NCBI RefSeq assembly: GCF_013407855.1
Contig: NZ_JACBZH010000001.1
Location: 496,001 to 560,000, forward strand
Source: Actinopolymorpha rutila
GTDB lineage: Bacteria; Actinomycetota; Actinomycetes; Propionibacteriales; Actinopolymorphaceae
DNA length: 64,000 nt
Reading direction: 5' to 3'
The notes under the pieces were generated by a model that ran no database searches, was not told the DNA's origin, and was given only the letters and a program-made list of their open reading frames with translations. Every line of letters begins with the position of its first letter. Within the stretch, counting starts at the first letter, position 1. The translations under genes were made by a program, and so were the position numbers. Of this stretch, positions 9,678-56,970 are shown piece after piece.

Positions 9678-10340
9678 CTAGCGCAGGACGCTGGTGATGC
9701 CGCCCCACAGGTGGGCGCGGAACGTCTCGTCCTCGTAGGCCACCGGCGCGTGCCCGAGCGAGGTGTACCACGCCTTCGCCCGGCCCACCTGCGTCCGCCA
9801 GCAGATCGGGTGGTCGGGGCCCATCCCGGACGAGCCGGCGTCGTAGTCGTCCTCGTTCACGGTCGCCAGGACGTCGACGGTTCCGCGCGGGTTGGTGTCG
9901 AAGGCGTACCACTCCTCGTGCCAGGACCACGGGGTGGGCAACGGCCTGGTGGAGGGGTCGTCGGTGCGTTCGACCTGGATCCGGGCGGTCTGCAACTCGC
10001 GAGGATGGGAGGTGAAGCGCGCGCCCACCAGCCGGTCGAACAACGGCCAGTCGCGTTCTGCGTCGGAGGCCACGTGGATCCCGGCGTACCCGCCGCCGCT
10101 CGCGGTGAACTCCTCGTACGCCTGCCGCTGGGCGGCGTCCAGCAGCCCGGTCCCGGACGTCTGCAGCCACACCACCGCGGCGTACCCGCTCAGGTTGGCC
10201 GACGTGAACGCGTCACCGGACTCGGTGTGGTCGAGGTCGACCGATGCGTCCGCGGCGAGGTTGCGCAACGCGGCGACGCCCGCCTCGATGGACTCGTGCC
10301 GGTAGCCGGCCGTACGCGAGAACACCAACAGCCTGGTCAT
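9678..10340 (-). CDS. ThuA-like trehalose-utilisation-family protein
   Basis: 220 residues covering one ThuA domain, a class I glutamine-amidotransferase-like fold. Hallmarks are LLVFSRTAGYRHESI at the N-terminus, the GGGYAGIHVASDAE segment near 88-101, and PICWRTQVGRAKAWYTSLGHAP near 172-193. ThuA proteins accompany sugar (trehalose, disaccharide) metabolism and often Gfo/Idh/MocA genes; the reaction is not established. TAGGGT lies 6 nt before ATG, so the mRNA is probably leaderless. It is divergent from the dehalogenase gene. Confidence 0.85.
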   Translation of the reverse strand: MTRLLVFSRTAGYRHESIEAGVAALRNLAADASVDLDHTESGDAFTSANLSGYAAVVWLQTSGTGLLDAAQRQAYEEFTASGGGYAGIHVASDAERDWPLFDRLVGARFTSHPRELQTARIQVERTDDPSTRPLPTPWSWHEEWYAFDTNPRGTVDVLATVNEDDYDAGSSGMGPDHPICWRTQVGRAKAWYTSLGHAPVAYEDETFRAHLWGGITSVLR

Positions 10341-10441: not shown

Positions 10442-11170
10442 ATGGCAGAGCTGGAGATCGACGCCCTCGTGTTCGACGTCCTCGGCACGCTCGTGGACGA
10501 GCCCGCCGGCATCCGCGCGGGTATCCATGAGCTGGCCCCCTCGCTGGAGGATTCCGGGCTCGAGCAGCTTCTGAGGTTGTGGCAGCAGCACATCGAGCGC
10601 GAGCAGGGCCGGGTGCTCGACGGGGACCGGGCCTACGTCACCACCGAGGTCCTCGATGGGGAGGCCGCCCGGCTGGTCGCCGACGCCGCCGGAGTCGACG
10701 ACCCGGCCGCGGTGGCGAGGCTGGCCCGGTCGGGCCGACGGCTTCCGCCGTGGCCCGACACCGTGACCGGGCTCGCCGAGATCGCCGAGCGGTTTCCGCT
10801 GATCGGGCTGTCCAGCGCGAGCCGCACCGCGCTGCTGGAACTCAACGCCCACGCCGGACTGCGCTGGCACCAGGCGCTGTCCGCCGAGGACGCCCGCACC
10901 TACAAGCCGGACCCGGCCGTCTACCGTTTGGCGGTCGACGTCTCCGGACGGCCGCCGGAGCGGTTGCTGATGGTCGCCGCGCACGCCTGGGATCTGCGCG
11001 GCGCGCAGCGCCTCGGCCTGCGCACCGCCTACGTTTCCCGGCCCGTCGGGGACCCGCCCTCGCAGTCGGACGAGTTCGACCTCCACGCCGACGACCTGGC
11101 CAGCCTGGTCCACCAACTCGACCGGCACCAGGGCACGCGAACCGGCCATGATTCGCAGGACAGACGCTAG
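10442..11170 (+). CDS. Haloacid dehalogenase, type II
   Basis: 242 residues of the HAD superfamily. Motif I FDVLGTLVDE gives nucleophile D12; motif II is GLSSAS; the conserved Lys lies in TYKPDP; and the segment VAAHAWDLRGAQRLGLRTAYV is diagnostic of the L-2-haloacid dehalogenase type II group. The enzyme would hydrolyse 2-haloalkanoates or a phosphate ester. The stop TAG (11168-11170) is part of the CTAG repeated on both sides of the insertion sequence, so the gene is full length despite the insertion. Confidence 0.85.
   Translation: MAELEIDALVFDVLGTLVDEPAGIRAGIHELAPSLEDSGLEQLLRLWQQHIEREQGRVLDGDRAYVTTEVLDGEAARLVADAAGVDDPAAVARLARSGRRLPPWPDTVTGLAEIAERFPLIGLSSASRTALLELNAHAGLRWHQALSAEDARTYKPDPAVYRLAVDVSGRPPERLLMVAAHAWDLRGAQRLGLRTAYVSRPVGDPPSQSDEFDLHADDLASLVHQLDRHQGTRTGHDSQDRR
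11167..11170. repeat. Left copy of the 4-bp target duplication (CTAG)
   Basis: CTAG directly precedes the left terminal repeat of the IS and recurs directly after the right one at 12850-12853. It contains the stop codon of the dehalogenase gene. Confidence 0.75.
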
Positions 11171-11214
11171 CCTCGGGATTTCACGTCGCGGGTGGTGTGT
11201 GCGGCGTGTAACGC

Positions 11215-11287
11215 ACGAAGTGCCTTCCATGCTCGGGAAACTTGGGATTGCGACGTCGCAAGTAGCACCGAGTGGAAGGCACTTCGT
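11215..11287 (+). repeat. Long foldback hairpin over the transposase ribosome site
   Basis: A perfect 15-bp inverted repeat (11215-11229 with 11273-11287), extended by CTCGG/CCGAG with a small bulge, encloses a perfect 14-bp palindrome (11248-11261). The right arm contains GGAAGG (11274-11279), the only ribosome-binding sequence before GTG 11290. A transcript entering from the upstream gene would fold and hide that site. Confidence 0.75.
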
Positions 11288-11289
11288 AG

Positions 11290-12702
11290 GTGAAGCGTAT
11301 CCCGGCTGTGGGTGTGGTGTTGGACTCGGCTCGTGAGTCGTTGGTGTCGAGTTCGGGTGGGCTGTTGCTGGCACAGACGGTGCGGGTGTCGGGGCTGGCG
11401 GATGCGTTGTCTGCGGCGCTGGCGCCGTGGCGTGGCCGGCGGGCGGTTCATGATCCGGGCAAGGTGATCTGTGATCTGGCGACCGCGGTCGCGTTGGGTG
11501 GGGACTGCCTTGCCGATCTGGGCGTGGTGCGGGCCCAGCCGGGGCTGTTCGGGCAGGTGGCCTCTGCCCCGACCGTCTCCCGGCTGATCGCCGCCCTGGC
11601 CGGTGACGTCGACGCGTCGCTGGCAGCGATCCGGACCGCGCACGCCGCCGCCCGGGACGCGGCCTGGGCGGCCCGGCGGCCGCTGCCCGGACGCGCGGGC
11701 TCTCGCGGTGGCGGGCAGGTGATCGTGGACATCGACTCCACCCTGGTCACCGCGCATTCGGACAAGGAACTGGCGGGGCCGACCTACAAGCGTGGGTTCG
11801 GGTTCGCGCCGATGTGCGCGTTCGTCGACCACGGCGAACACGGCACCGGGGAGACGCTGGCCCTGGCGTTGCGGCCGGGGCCGGCTTCCCCGCAAAACGT
11901 CGCCGATCACATCGATGCCCTGGATCTGGCGCTGGCCCAGCTCCCCGAGCACGAGCGGGCCCAGGTGCTGGTCCGCGCAGATTCTGGGGCGTGTTCGAAG
12001 AAGTTCCTGGGCCACGTCACCGATAAGGGTCTGGAGTACTCGATCGGCTACGCGGCTCACCCCACGGTCAAGGCCGCGGTCGAGGCGATCCCGGTCCAGG
12101 CGTGGCGGGCAGCCCTCGACGGCGACGGCGACCCCCGCGAGGGCGCCCAGGTCGCCGAACTCACCGCCTGGATGCCCACCCCGGTGCGATCTACCCGCCC
12201 GGGCCCACAGGAGTGGCCGGACGGTATGCGGGTGATCGCCCGCCGAGAACGCCCCCACCCCGGCGCCCAACTCCGGCTGACCGACATCGACGGGTGGCGC
12301 ATCACCTGCTTTGCCACCAACACCAAAGGTTCCGGCTGGACCTTGCCGGTGCTGGAGGTCCGCCACCGTCAACGCGCCCGCGCCGAGGACCGCATCCGCT
12401 GCCTCAAAGACACCGGTATGGCCAACCTGCCCTTCGCCGACTACGACCGCAACCAGATCTGGCTGGCAATCGTGGCCCTGGCCTCCGACCTGCTCACCTG
12501 GACCCAGACCCTGGCCTGGCCCGACCAGCCACCCAGCCAGCCGCAGGTGCGCCGCTGGGAACCCAAACGGATCCGGCTACGCATCCTGTCCGTGGCCGGG
12601 CGCATCATCGCCACCGGCCGGCGACAACTCCTGCGACTACCCCGCGACTGGCCCTGGAACCCGCTCATCGACACCGGCTGGGCCACCCTCAACACCACCT
12701 GA
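11290..12702 (+). CDS. IS1380-family transposase
   Basis: 470 residues, the usual size for the family. The DDE catalytic set can be read as D in VDIDSTL (about 152), D in RADSGAC (about 235) and E in RAEDRIR (about 362), followed by the conserved GMANLPF and a C-terminal basic region. The N-terminal part (1-130) carries the DNA-binding segment. GTG 11290 is preceded by GGAAGG at 10 nt, buried in the foldback stem. No frameshift or internal stop is present, so the element may be active. Codon use matches the host. Confidence 0.9.
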   Translation: MKRIPAVGVVLDSARESLVSSSGGLLLAQTVRVSGLADALSAALAPWRGRRAVHDPGKVICDLATAVALGGDCLADLGVVRAQPGLFGQVASAPTVSRLIAALAGDVDASLAAIRTAHAAARDAAWAARRPLPGRAGSRGGGQVIVDIDSTLVTAHSDKELAGPTYKRGFGFAPMCAFVDHGEHGTGETLALALRPGPASPQNVADHIDALDLALAQLPEHERAQVLVRADSGACSKKFLGHVTDKGLEYSIGYAAHPTVKAAVEAIPVQAWRAALDGDGDPREGAQVAELTAWMPTPVRSTRPGPQEWPDGMRVIARRERPHPGAQLRLTDIDGWRITCFATNTKGSGWTLPVLEVRHRQRARAEDRIRCLKDTGMANLPFADYDRNQIWLAIVALASDLLTWTQTLAWPDQPPSQPQVRRWEPKRIRLRILSVAGRIIATGRRQLLRLPRDWPWNPLIDTGWATLNTT

Positions 12703-12740
12703 GAACAGACCCCAATCCCTACCACCAGGACCAAGGAGAA

Positions 12741-12759
12741 CCGGCGACCACAGCGCCGG
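12741..12759 (+). terminator. Hairpin downstream of the transposase
   Basis: CCGGCG (12741-12746) pairs with CGCCGG (12754-12759) around a 7-nt loop, 38 nt after the transposase stop. There is no T run, so termination strength is uncertain. Confidence 0.3.
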
Positions 12760-12849
12760 AAACCACCCCTGCCCACCACCAGGCGAAGGACAGCACCCCG
12801 ACCGAAACCACGACCACACCTCGATGACCAGCCAGATGAAAGATCGAGG

Positions 12850-12853
12850 CTAG
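12850..12853. repeat. Right copy of the 4-bp target duplication (CTAG)
   Basis: The second CTAG abuts the right IS end. Read on the minus strand its first three bases give the TAG stop of the SDR gene. Confidence 0.75.
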
Positions 12854-13656
12854 GCGAAGCCGCCGTTGCTCATCAGGAGCTGGCCGTTGATCCACTGCCC
12901 GCGCGGTGAACACAGGAAGTCGACGAGGTTCGCGGTGTCCTGTGGTGTGCCGAGGCGGCCGAGCGGCGTCTGTCGGATGCCGCTCGCCCGGATCTCGTCG
13001 CTCATCCAGCCGGTGTCCACCGGGCCGGGATTGATCACGTTGGCACTGACGCCGAGCTGGGCGAACTCGCGGGCGGCGGCGAGCGTGATCCGGTCGAGCG
13101 CCCCCTTGCTCGCGCCGTAGGGCAGGTTGCCGACGTAGTGGTCGCTGGTCAGGCTGATGATCCGGCCGGTGCCGGGCTCGCCGGCGAAGCGCCGGCCGTA
13201 CTCGCGGATCAGCAGCCAGGTGGCGCGCGCGTTGACCGCGAAGTGCCGGTCGAAGCTCTCGACCGTGGTGTCGAGCAACCCGGAGTCGACCGACTCGCAG
13301 TGACACATCACCAGTGCGGTGACGCCGCCGAGTCGGCGTTCGGCCTCGTCGAACACCGCCGCCGGGGCGTCCGGGTCGGACAGGTCCGCCTCGATGGCCG
13401 CCGTGGCCGCGCCGTGCTCGGCGAGATCGTCGGCGATCGCCTGCGTCGCACCGTCCTCGACGCCCCAGGACATGCGCTGGTCGTAGGGCGTCCAGTAGGT
13501 GAACGCGATGTCCCAGCCCGAGTCGGCCAGTTGGCGGGCAATGCCCGCGCCGATTCCGACCGTCCGGCCGACGCCGGTGACCAGTGCCACCGGGCGGCCC
13601 GGACCGGACTCATCGGGTTCTGCGGACGCCTGGATCGTTCGTTCGTTGTGGCTCAT
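12850..13656 (-). CDS. Short-chain dehydrogenase/reductase
   Basis: 268 residues with the classical SDR layout: cofactor loop TGVGRTVGIGAG (about 27-38), D in EADLSDP, catalytic Ser in SLTSDHY and the Tyr-Lys pair in YGASKGAL, then NPGPVDTGW and a C-terminal GQLLMSNGG. The first 20 residues are an extra charged tail. Substrate cannot be deduced. The gene ends exactly at the IS; its stop codon comes from the duplicated CTAG, so before the insertion it overlapped the convergent dehalogenase stop by two bases. Confidence 0.85.
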   Translation of the reverse strand: MSHNERTIQASAEPDESGPGRPVALVTGVGRTVGIGAGIARQLADSGWDIAFTYWTPYDQRMSWGVEDGATQAIADDLAEHGAATAAIEADLSDPDAPAAVFDEAERRLGGVTALVMCHCESVDSGLLDTTVESFDRHFAVNARATWLLIREYGRRFAGEPGTGRIISLTSDHYVGNLPYGASKGALDRITLAAAREFAQLGVSANVINPGPVDTGWMSDEIRASGIRQTPLGRLGTPQDTANLVDFLCSPRGQWINGQLLMSNGGFA

Positions 13657-53812: not shown

Positions 53813-54784
53813 ATGACGTCGGAGGAGACGCGCGAGGGCGTGTCGCTCACCAACCTCGACCAGCCGCTGTTCGACGGGGCCGGGGCGACGAAGCGCGACC
53901 TGGTCGACTACCTCGACGTGGTCGGTGACCGGATCATCGCCGAGCTGGCCGGCCGACCGCTGTCGGTGGTGCGGGTGCTGCGCGGGCAGCCGCCGTTCAT
54001 GCAGAAGAACCTCCCGAAATACACCCCCTCGTGGGTGCGCAGCGTCTCGGTGTGGGCGGAGGCGTCCAAGCGGGAGATCCGGTACGCCCTGTGCGACGAC
54101 CGCCGGACGCTGCTGTGGTTCGGCAACCAGCGCGCGATCGAGTACCACCCCACGCTGTCCCGTGCCGACAGCGTCACCCACCCGACCGCCCTCATCCTCG
54201 ACATCGACCCGCCGGAGGGCGACGACCTCGCCGCGGGGTTCGGCCTGGCCGTCGCGGCGGCGAAGCTGGTCCGGCAGGCGCTGGCCGACGCCGGGCTGGC
54301 CGGAGCGGTGAAGACCAGCGGCGCCAAGGGCCTGCACGTGGTCGTCCCGCTCGCGTCGGGGCAGGACGTGTGGGACGTCGCGGCCGCGACCCGGGCGCTC
54401 GCCGTGCGCGCCCAGCGGCTCGATCCGTCCGTGGCCACCACCGCGTTCATCCGCGAGGACCGGGCCGGGAAGGTGTTCCTCGACTCGACCCGCGCCGGCG
54501 GGGCCACGGTCGTCGCGGCGTACAGCCCGCGCGTCCGGCCGGGTGTGCCGGTGTCCTACCCCGTCGGCTGGGACGTGCTCGACGACATCGCACCGGGTGA
54601 CTTCACCATCCACACCGTGCCCGAGCTGATCGGCGCGGGTGACCCGTGGGCCGAGCAGTTGCCGGCACCTCAGACCCTGCGTGCCGACCTCGTGGCCGAG
54701 GGGCACACGATCCCGGTGGCCCGCGTCCAGGCGATGCACGAGGGCAAGCGCCGCGCCCGTGCTCGGCGCGGGGAGTCCACCTAG
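53813..54784 (+). CDS. LigD-type polymerase/primase domain protein (stand-alone)
   Basis: 323 residues corresponding to the polymerase domain of ligase D. The catalytic DxD is D130-I-D132 in LILDIDPP; VKTSGAKGLHVVVPL and the later LDSTRAGGATVVAAYSPR are characteristic. The ligase and phosphoesterase parts are missing, and no Ku gene is in the window. Such PolD/PrimC-type proteins fill gaps or act in end-joining. Its TAG stop overlaps the convergent helicase stop inside CTAG. The longer frame upstream belongs to the sigma gene in another frame. Confidence 0.85.
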   Translation: MTSEETREGVSLTNLDQPLFDGAGATKRDLVDYLDVVGDRIIAELAGRPLSVVRVLRGQPPFMQKNLPKYTPSWVRSVSVWAEASKREIRYALCDDRRTLLWFGNQRAIEYHPTLSRADSVTHPTALILDIDPPEGDDLAAGFGLAVAAAKLVRQALADAGLAGAVKTSGAKGLHVVVPLASGQDVWDVAAATRALAVRAQRLDPSVATTAFIREDRAGKVFLDSTRAGGATVVAAYSPRVRPGVPVSYPVGWDVLDDIAPGDFTIHTVPELIGAGDPWAEQLPAPQTLRADLVAEGHTIPVARVQAMHEGKRRARARRGEST

Positions 54785-56970
54785 CCTACGGCGGTGTCGC
54801 GGAGCTCGGCCGGCAGCGGTTCAGCGTGTACGACGTGCAGGCTGGTGACCGCCCGGGTCAGCACGACGTACAACCGCGCCATCCCACGCGGCTCGGCCGC
54901 CACGATCCTGGCCGGCTCGGCGACCACCACCGCGTCGAACTCCAGTCCCTTGGCCAACATCGCGGGTACGCACACCAGCCGGGCCGTCTCCATCGCGTCG
55001 TCGGCGCTGCCGAGCAAGGCGGACGGGAGATTCCTGTCCAACAGGCCCGCTCGCAGTTCTGCGACGTCAGCGTCCGCCGCGATCATCGCGACCGAGCCCT
55101 CACCGGCCAGGGCGTTCCGGCAGGCGTCCGCGAGACTGTCAAGGAAGCCTTGCGGATCGGGGGATGCGGCGGGACGGGCGGAACTGATCCGCAGCGCGTC
55201 CGGCAGGGAACGGATCCCTGTCGGCCGGCCCAGGGCGGGCGCGATCGTCGGCAGCAGCCGGGCCGCGAAGTCGATGATCTCGCCCGGCACCCGGAATCCT
55301 CGTTCCAGCTCGACCAGCCGGGTCCCGGGCATCTCCAGGTGCTCGAAGACCTGCTCCCACGAACCCGTCGTCCACGCCGACGTCGCCTGGGCGAGGTCGC
55401 CCAGCACGGTCGCGGAGCCGGTACGGCAGCGCCGGCCGAGTGCCCGTAGCTGCATTGCCGACAGGTCCTGCGCCTCGTCCACGACCAGGTGACCGAGGGA
55501 ACCTGCCCGGCGTTCGATCAGGTCGGTGAGCTCGTCGAGCAGGACCAGCTCCGCCGGCGACCACTTCGCCGACTTCGCCGACCGCGGGGGCTTGGCCCAG
55601 GCCAGCTCGGCCCTCTCGTCCTCGGCGAGGTCGGCGCCGGCCGCGGCCGCGAGGAACGCGGCGTCCGACAGCAGCCGGAACAGCACCTGCTCCGGCGTCA
55701 CCTTCGGCCACACCTGGTCGACCAGCGCCTTCACCGGCCGCGACCGGGCCACGGCGTTCTGAACCCTGTCGTCGGGTGACTCGCCGCGGCGTTCCATCAG
55801 CACCAGCACCTCGTGTGCGATCCGCTGTGCGAGCGAGTTGCGTCCGGGTGCGTAGCGGGTCGCACCGCGCAGCGACTCGACGATCTCCTGGACGGCGTAG
55901 TCGTGCACGCGGTAGCGGTTGGCTCCCTTGGTGTAGAGGATTCCCTCGGTCGGCGTACCGACGTGCAGCCACAGCGCGCGCAGCAGAACGGCCGCCATCC
56001 GGGCGTCGCCCTTGAGCTGCTCGGCCCGCGGGTCCCCGGTGACCGTGCCGGCAGCGCCGGCGGTGCCTACAGTGCCGGGCTGGCCGAGCAGCTCTTCTAC
56101 GGTGGTCTGGCGTACGTCGACCTCACCGAGGGCGGGCAGCACCTTGCGGATGTAGGACAGGAACGAGCGGTTGGGCCCGACGATGACGACGCCGCCGCGG
56201 CTGAGGCGTTCGCGTTCGGTGTAGAGCAGGTAGGCGATCCGGTGCAGCCCGATCGCCGTCTTGCCGGTGCCCGGCGCGCCCTGAACGCAGATGGACGGCT
56301 GCAGGGGCGCGCGAACCAGGTCGTCCTGCTCGGGCTGGATGGTGGCCACGATGTCGCGCATCGGTCCGGTACGCGGCCGCTCGATCTCGGCCCGCAGGAA
56401 GGCGTCCGCCTCGGTGCTGCCGGCGTCGATGGCGTCCGAGGCCGTACCCGTGCCGTCGAGGATCTCGTCGTCGTAGGCGGTGAGGTCGGCCGCGTCGGAG
56501 AAGCCGTAGCGACGGCGCCGGTGGACGTGCTGCCGGTCGGTGCGGGTGGCGCGGTAGAAGGGGACCGAGACCCGCGCCCGCCAGTCGATGACCAGCGGCG
56601 CACCCGCCTCGTCGTGGACGTGCCGGCGGCCGATGTGGATCCGGTCGGCCGCCTCCGCCACGGTCCCGGCGTCGTAGTCGATCCGGCCGAAGAACAGCGG
56701 CACGTCGGGCAGGTCGACCAGGGACTGGGCGCGCAGCCAGCGGGCGCGGAGGTTCGACTCGTTGGTGAAGCGTTCGTCGTTGTCCTCGCCACCGATCAGC
56801 GGGGTCTCGGTGGCCACGACGTCCGCGTGCATGCGGCGCAGAGCCGCGCGGGCGGTGTCCAGGAAGGCGCGCTCGGTCCGGAGTTCGGGGTCGGGGTCGT
56901 GCGGTCGGTCGGGTTCGGCGGGTTGCGGCTCGTGCGGCCGGCCGGCCGGCGTGGTGACGTACTCGATCAT
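54781..56970 (-). CDS. HelR/HelD-type RNA polymerase-associated helicase
   Basis: 729 residues. Walker A GAPGTGKTA (231-239), the UvrD-like VVDEAQDLS motif, LVELERGFRVPGEI and VVLTRAVTSLHVVHA are in the order of HelD-type SF1 proteins, and the N-terminal 200 residues are the expected arm. HelD/HelR frees stalled RNA polymerase; HelR of Streptomyces protects it from rifamycins. I saw no rifamycin-associated palindrome upstream. Start ATG 56970 has AGG close by, and an upstream Met at 57072 is less likely. Confidence 0.8.
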   Translation of the reverse strand: MIEYVTTPAGRPHEPQPAEPDRPHDPDPELRTERAFLDTARAALRRMHADVVATETPLIGGEDNDERFTNESNLRARWLRAQSLVDLPDVPLFFGRIDYDAGTVAEAADRIHIGRRHVHDEAGAPLVIDWRARVSVPFYRATRTDRQHVHRRRRYGFSDAADLTAYDDEILDGTGTASDAIDAGSTEADAFLRAEIERPRTGPMRDIVATIQPEQDDLVRAPLQPSICVQGAPGTGKTAIGLHRIAYLLYTERERLSRGGVVIVGPNRSFLSYIRKVLPALGEVDVRQTTVEELLGQPGTVGTAGAAGTVTGDPRAEQLKGDARMAAVLLRALWLHVGTPTEGILYTKGANRYRVHDYAVQEIVESLRGATRYAPGRNSLAQRIAHEVLVLMERRGESPDDRVQNAVARSRPVKALVDQVWPKVTPEQVLFRLLSDAAFLAAAAGADLAEDERAELAWAKPPRSAKSAKWSPAELVLLDELTDLIERRAGSLGHLVVDEAQDLSAMQLRALGRRCRTGSATVLGDLAQATSAWTTGSWEQVFEHLEMPGTRLVELERGFRVPGEIIDFAARLLPTIAPALGRPTGIRSLPDALRISSARPAASPDPQGFLDSLADACRNALAGEGSVAMIAADADVAELRAGLLDRNLPSALLGSADDAMETARLVCVPAMLAKGLEFDAVVVAEPARIVAAEPRGMARLYVVLTRAVTSLHVVHAEPLPAELRDTAVG

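Follow-up and report, generated by a model that had tools for sequence, protein, structure and literature searches.

The window analysed here is a stretch of 64,000 nucleotides from Actinopolymorpha rutila, in which two convergent genes, one for a haloacid dehalogenase and one for an SDR-family oxidoreductase, are separated by an insertion sequence with CTAG on both sides. The features, in window coordinates, are as follows; the last is a site of the same kind without an element.

10442-11170, plus strand: haloacid dehalogenase type II (HAD), 242 aa (TIGR01428, 165 bits against a cut-off of 125.4; PF00702)
11167-11170: CTAG, left copy of the 4-bp target duplication, read from the sequence
11171-12849, plus strand: IS1380-family insertion sequence of 1679 bp, bounded by imperfect inverted repeats (11171-11186, 12834-12849)
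11290-12702, plus strand: IS1380 transposase, DDE type, 470 aa (matches to NF033539 and PF13701)
12850-12853: CTAG, right copy of the 4-bp target duplication, read from the sequence
12850-13656, minus strand: SDR-family oxidoreductase, 268 aa (PF13561, 132 bits)
54781-54784: CTAG common to the stops of two convergent genes, uninterrupted (gene calls and families)

The HAD gene, whose start was picked to match the orthologue in a related genome (G004), ends with the TAG at 11168-11170, inside the left CTAG, and the SDR gene on the opposite strand ends with the CTA at 12850-12852, inside the right CTAG, such that both frames are complete despite the insertion. Taking out the element and one CTAG in silico yields coding sequences that overlap by 4 bp and stop codons that overlap by 2 bp. 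These findings bear out the initial annotation, which had described an IS1380-like element with CTAG on both sides, a dehalogenase stop in one CTAG and an SDR stop in the other, restoration of both stops by the 4-bp duplication, and convergent genes with a two-base stop overlap once the element and one CTAG are removed; its coordinates for the element are exact, and the family follows from NF033539. The uninterrupted CTAG overlap that it reported at 54781-54784 is likewise found by gene calling, between a plus-strand gene with a LigD primase-polymerase domain (53813-54784) and a minus-strand gene for a UvrD-like helicase (54781-56970). The harmlessness of the insertion is real at the level of the reading frames.

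IS1380-family elements are about 1.7 kb long and duplicate 4 or 5 bp of their target. The window element has an imperfect pair of inverted repeats (CCTCGGGATTTCACGT and CCTCGATCTTTCATCT, which match at 11 of 16 positions), a length of 1679 bp, a single 470-aa transposase frame, and CTAG flanks at both of its copies in the source genome. The transposase scores 311 bits against NF033539, the curated IS1380 model with a cut-off of 180, and 220 bits against PF13701. It also matches the broad PF01609 model with 48.5 bits, a match that alone does not separate the IS5 family from the IS1380 family. We considered membership in the IS5 family and rejected it, as no IS5-type transposase is found and, among the NCBIfam models, that of IS1380 alone matches at E up to 0.001. 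In its transposase match, its ends beginning with CC, its 4-bp duplication and its length of about 1.7 kb, the window element is like the rest of the family; it is an ordinary IS1380-family member, and nothing marks a new group. A structure model of the transposase (pTM 0.76, mean pLDDT 72) places it closer in fold to Tn5 than to piggyBac, with Tn5 transposase making up the best five matches of a fold search (E up to 0.001) and piggyBac (6x67) at rank 6 with an E of 3.6e-3; a sequence-profile search for a solved relative finds none at E up to 1.

The source genome is a single contig of 6.95 Mb and carries a second, letter-identical copy of the element at G000:C1:1056632-1058310 (L159), again with CTAG on either side. 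An exact genome-wide search for the pattern of Py-T-A-Pu (hereafter YTAR) joined to the inverted repeat finds no ends beyond the four of these two copies. Judging from two identical copies at different places, we infer that the window element was active recently. The second copy lies in a divergent intergenic region, its CTAG 33 bp before an SMP-30-like gene (named from sequence), the expression of which it may alter.

To place these flanks in a wider setting, relatives were gathered from genome contigs (75 loci), from 57 genomes and from 391 genomes of the same order, both genome sets including the source genome, and the survey also took in further copies available as sequence stretches. Repeated insertions (e.g., L202, equal to L072, and L227, equal to L070, which we judged to be the same Kribbella insertions), loci of a later search (L247-L262) and background stretches were left out before the count, leaving 210 sources, 137 of which have a transposase match at E 1e-25. 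Ends were called with an inverted-repeat motif blind to the flanks, and both ends were called in 103 of the 137 copies, while 8 are cut short and 26 gave no resolved ends. Each of the 103 copies has its own flanks, shared with none of the others. Identical YTAR flanks are found in 52 of them (33 CTAG, 12 TTAG, 5 CTAA and 2 TTAA, the two own copies included, and with L085 (TTAA) counted here although a narrower end search picked another right end for it), and identical flanks that are not YTAR in 6 (CTGG twice, CCAG, CTTG, TTGG and TCAG), which makes YTAR the target in 52 of the 58 copies whose 4-bp flanks are the same on both sides. A further 16 of the 103 have unequal YTAR at the two ends, and 29 fit neither class. 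YTAR is present at one end in 25 of these 29, a pattern that miscalled ends or decay of the copies would produce, and some of them are probably of this kind. A profile of 45 target sites, the own copies excluded (and not the context set used below), reveals no clear signal outside the tetramer. Relaxed targets (CTGG, TTGG, CCAG and CTTG) are found at L223, L241, L242 (G367) and at L238, L239 (G091), and all five of these copies lie in predicted coding sequence.

The CTAG duplication at the window element is not a matter of chance, being the same in the second copy and falling within the YTAR set that accounts for 52 of 58 identical-flank copies. The initial annotation had proposed to record the target sites of other copies and see whether CTAG or convergent stops are preferred; the duplication of CTAG recurs, but the rule is YTAR rather than CTAG, and convergent stops are no part of it.

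The survival of both genes can be read from the tetramer itself. YTAR reads TAR on each strand and hence holds a stop codon in one frame per strand; given TAG or TAA on both strands of any YTAR, recognition of gene ends is unnecessary. In the accessible portion of PMC2174442, the tetramers fitting termination of convergent genes in a 4-bp overlap are CTAA, TTAA, CTAG and TTAG, a set that, as given there, is exactly YTAR, and a YTAR duplication therefore necessarily leaves both stops at any such overlap. We propose that an IS1380-family element with this target rule would insert at the CTAG ending the SDR gene, that a staggered cut and its repair would duplicate the four bases (the duplication is seen in the flanks, and the chemistry is that presumed from DDE transposases in general), and that the duplicate on each side would terminate whichever gene enters it in that frame, keeping both genes whole automatically. 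In a genome of 70% GC, YTAR would be rare and mostly outside coding sequence or at its ends, which would steer the element away from genes. We consider it very probable that the locus is to be explained in this way, by a YTAR-targeted insertion at the SDR gene's CTAG with a duplication that spares both genes, and by an avoidance of genes that stems from the rarity of the target.

Close SDR orthologues are found in three genomes of the same genus, at 88-91% identity, and the CTAG at the SDR stop is kept in G001, G002, G004 and the more distant G025. In G004, where a search for a relative of the window transposase finds none, HAD and SDR are adjacent without the element and the SDR end reads CTAGGCGAAG; the window minus the element and one CTAG aligns to this junction free of gaps, which indicates that the insertion was precise. 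The empty site that the initial annotation predicted is thus present as far as its CTAG junction goes, but the predicted overlap of HAD and SDR is not: HAD in G004 stops at a CTAG of its own, 33 nt upstream and in frame with the SDR's CTAG, such that the stops are 29 nt apart, and in G002 they are about 265 nt apart. In G001, a search of the 1.5 kb past the SDR gene returns no HAD match. By eye, the SDR neighbour there (L039) looks like the window gene at 9678-10340, as would follow from a loss or relocation of HAD.

Compared with its G004 orthologue, the window HAD extends further, reaching the SDR's CTAG, where it stops; the HAD-stop CTAG of G004 aligns to CACG in the window. Because HAD in G004 stops upstream without an overlap, HAD may have been extended either before or after the element came in, and a landing in stops already shared is one of two possible orders. 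In the other order, the insertion at the SDR's CTAG came first and HAD later lost its upstream stop, now ending at the in-frame TAG of the left duplicate. The upstream HAD stop of G004, which shares its frame with the SDR's CTAG, and the change between CTAG and CACG argue for this sequence of events, which nonetheless requires a mutation after an insertion that, with two identical copies in the genome, is apparently recent; we regard it as a serious possibility, though we lean slightly away from it. It bears on order only and is compatible with the explanation by YTAR targeting.

That explanation makes a statement about where YTAR is to be found, and we counted CTAG in a 464-kb sample of the source genome (the window plus twenty 20-kb stretches), which is 70.1% GC and 84% coding. 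CTAG occurs 106 times compared with 332 expected from trinucleotide counts, a ratio of 0.32 and the lowest of any tetramer. With 62 sites between genes, 18 inside coding sequence, 23 at a single stop and 3 at both stops, CTAG is mostly non-coding, so a CTAG-directed element would fall outside genes or at their ends about five times in six by target alone; this scarcity and mostly non-coding placement mean that YTAR specificity would keep the element out of genes. The context of actual insertions was obtained by gene-calling the joined flanks of 45 YTAR insertions, 7 of the 52 identical-YTAR copies being excluded (6 with a flank below 300 bases and 1 Mycobacterium locus), with a home-made caller trained on the source genome alone. 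Among the 45, of which 2 are at TTAA, 38 are intergenic (a class that may hide small or broken genes, given a home-made caller trained on one genome), 3 coding, 2 at both stops and 2 at one stop, while 249 background YTAR in the same flanks comprise 174 intergenic, 53 coding and 22 one-stop sites. The 3 coding hits are far fewer than flanks that are 66% coding would give (binomial p = 1e-16), and the shortage against background YTAR, 53 of 249 coding, is modest (Fisher p = 0.022; some of our Fisher tests use the background before deduplication, with 56/255 coding instead of 53/249) and may be explained by selection after insertion. That selection alone set the position, with insertion at random and only harmless copies surviving, is nevertheless most improbable: the coding shortage against background YTAR makes some selection likely, but random insertion would not yield YTAR in 52 of 58 identical-flank copies, and non-YTAR copies do occur in coding sequence (5 of 6, p = 1.4e-4 against YTAR insertions, the five coming from only two genomes, G091 and G367, and hence not being independent).

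The element might instead actively favour convergent gene ends, e.g., via supercoiling or terminator structure. Sites at both stops account for 2 of 45 insertions compared with 2 of 441 in the pooled background (Fisher p = 0.045, against the background before deduplication), and a preference for convergent gene ends is argued for REP-targeting elements in the available part of PMC1525189. The difference is lost once the index case is removed (1/44, p = 0.25), and sites at any stop are used at about the background rate (4/45 compared with 22/249), which speaks against a preference for convergent stops. The other both-stop case, moreover, is at the end of an IS630-type transposase fragment and not of a host gene, the source genome's second copy lies between divergent genes, and IS1380 elements are over-represented between same-direction genes, not convergent ones, in a large survey (PMC9208149, in the part of it available). 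We thus hold an active preference for convergent ends to be very unlikely, and return to YTAR targeting. Of the 106 CTAG sites in the 464-kb sample, 3 coincide with both stops of convergent genes, one of them being the window site with the element removed, and the presence of the window copy at a shared-stop site is roughly a 2-3% event per CTAG, noticed post hoc. The second insertion at a shared-stop CTAG, L069 (2872, 4527), has on its two sides an IS630-type (DDE_3) transposase fragment and a histidine-kinase-like gene, the kinase being named from sequence. These comparisons caution that a "preference for gene ends" should not be read straight from insertion maps.

The 16 copies with unequal YTAR flanks (e.g., L086, L215, L221 and L233) were examined in the same light. 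Overhangs of piggyBac carry over donor bases, and we considered such carry-over here; collinear relatives were sought for 4 of the 16. The two flanks of L215 match different places in G391, G281 and G067, in matches that end some hundreds of bases short of the element and may be to paralogues; the left flank of L221 is multi-copy in G038, where no copy adjoins the match of the right flank; and no informative relatives are found for L211 and L217, the latter lying among repeats. By hand, L244 and L246 (G271:C1:2227989-2240458) are seen to lie 11 kb apart with both outer flanks TTAG and both inner flanks CTAG, and a further transposase relative sits between them. Such flanks are as expected of recombination between copies, a composite transposon or an integrated circle. 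Among those examined (the four copies and the L244/L246 pair, 6 of the 16), no case supports donor-base carry-over, and recombination between copies at present accounts better for the unequal flanks.

The source genome also holds a second IS1380 group, with five copies of a 498-aa transposase (28% identity to that of the window), each with a 5-bp CTTAG duplication:

G000:C1, about 295-305 kb, 4164-4210 kb and 4449 kb: second-group copies L154-L158

Four of these five lie outside called genes and one in a weakly scored frame. Among 26 loci examined for ends of this type, 8 are resolved, a small set made up of the five own copies and one each with CTAAG, CTTAG and CTGAG elsewhere. The 464-kb sample contains 18 occurrences of CTTAG and CTAAG combined, of which 3 are coding. 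CTGAG, used by one copy, is coding in 144 of 218 occurrences, and being common in coding sequence it is at odds with the idea of a safe target. We suggest, tentatively and with more reserve than conviction, that in GC-rich actinobacteria the IS1380 family may have settled on stop-bearing palindromes as an addressing rule that serves as a safe-harbour device. Such a rule might, with the same reserve, cover both YTAR in the window clade and CTTAG/CTAAG in the second group, targets that are rare, mostly non-coding and self-repairing at gene ends. Should this connection prove general among GC-rich hosts, the tolerance of such elements there would have an explanation that is simple and can be tested. 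The point worth keeping is that the target set coincides with the set of shared-stop tetramers, together with what follows from this in GC-rich genomes; the present case shows how a mobile element can become almost harmless through a short palindromic target, with no need to recognise genes.

Among the open-access papers searched we recognise no account of YTAR specificity in IS1380 or of stop-codon palindromes as a safe target, which is weak evidence of absence, and IS1676 of Rhodococcus is a possible precedent. Among other elements with comparable targets, IS5 belongs to a different IS family and its host is not GC-rich, piggyBac excises seamlessly, and the target of REP-targeting insertion sequences is longer than four bases. 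IS5 of E. coli has, in the accessible part of PMC5493358, a duplication consensus of Py-T-A-Pu with CTAG at 15 of 24 listed targets, CTAA at 3 and TTAG at 3, and YTAR is likewise its target in the text available from PMC10359306; as far as these sources go, its rule is the same as that of the window element, with CTAG commonest. The usual target of piggyBac is TTAA, which belongs to the YTAR set, and TTAG and CTAA are listed as exceptions along with others (PMC10813416, in the part available); these reported targets would fit a T-A-centred target shared with the window element. A TTAA target as in the piggyBac superfamily was rejected for the window element, given targets that are YTAR, TTAA at only 2 of 45 sites and CTAG at both own copies. 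REP-targeting insertion sequences, as described in the available part of PMC1525189, insert outside genes, often between convergent genes and with little harm; their low-harm extragenic target is alike in this respect, but is a repeated palindromic element, compared with four bases for the window element. Within the same genus, a genome of 10.6 Mb (G003) carries 29 matches to the IS1380 transposase, at many places on its contig C1 and with at least two subgroups side by side.
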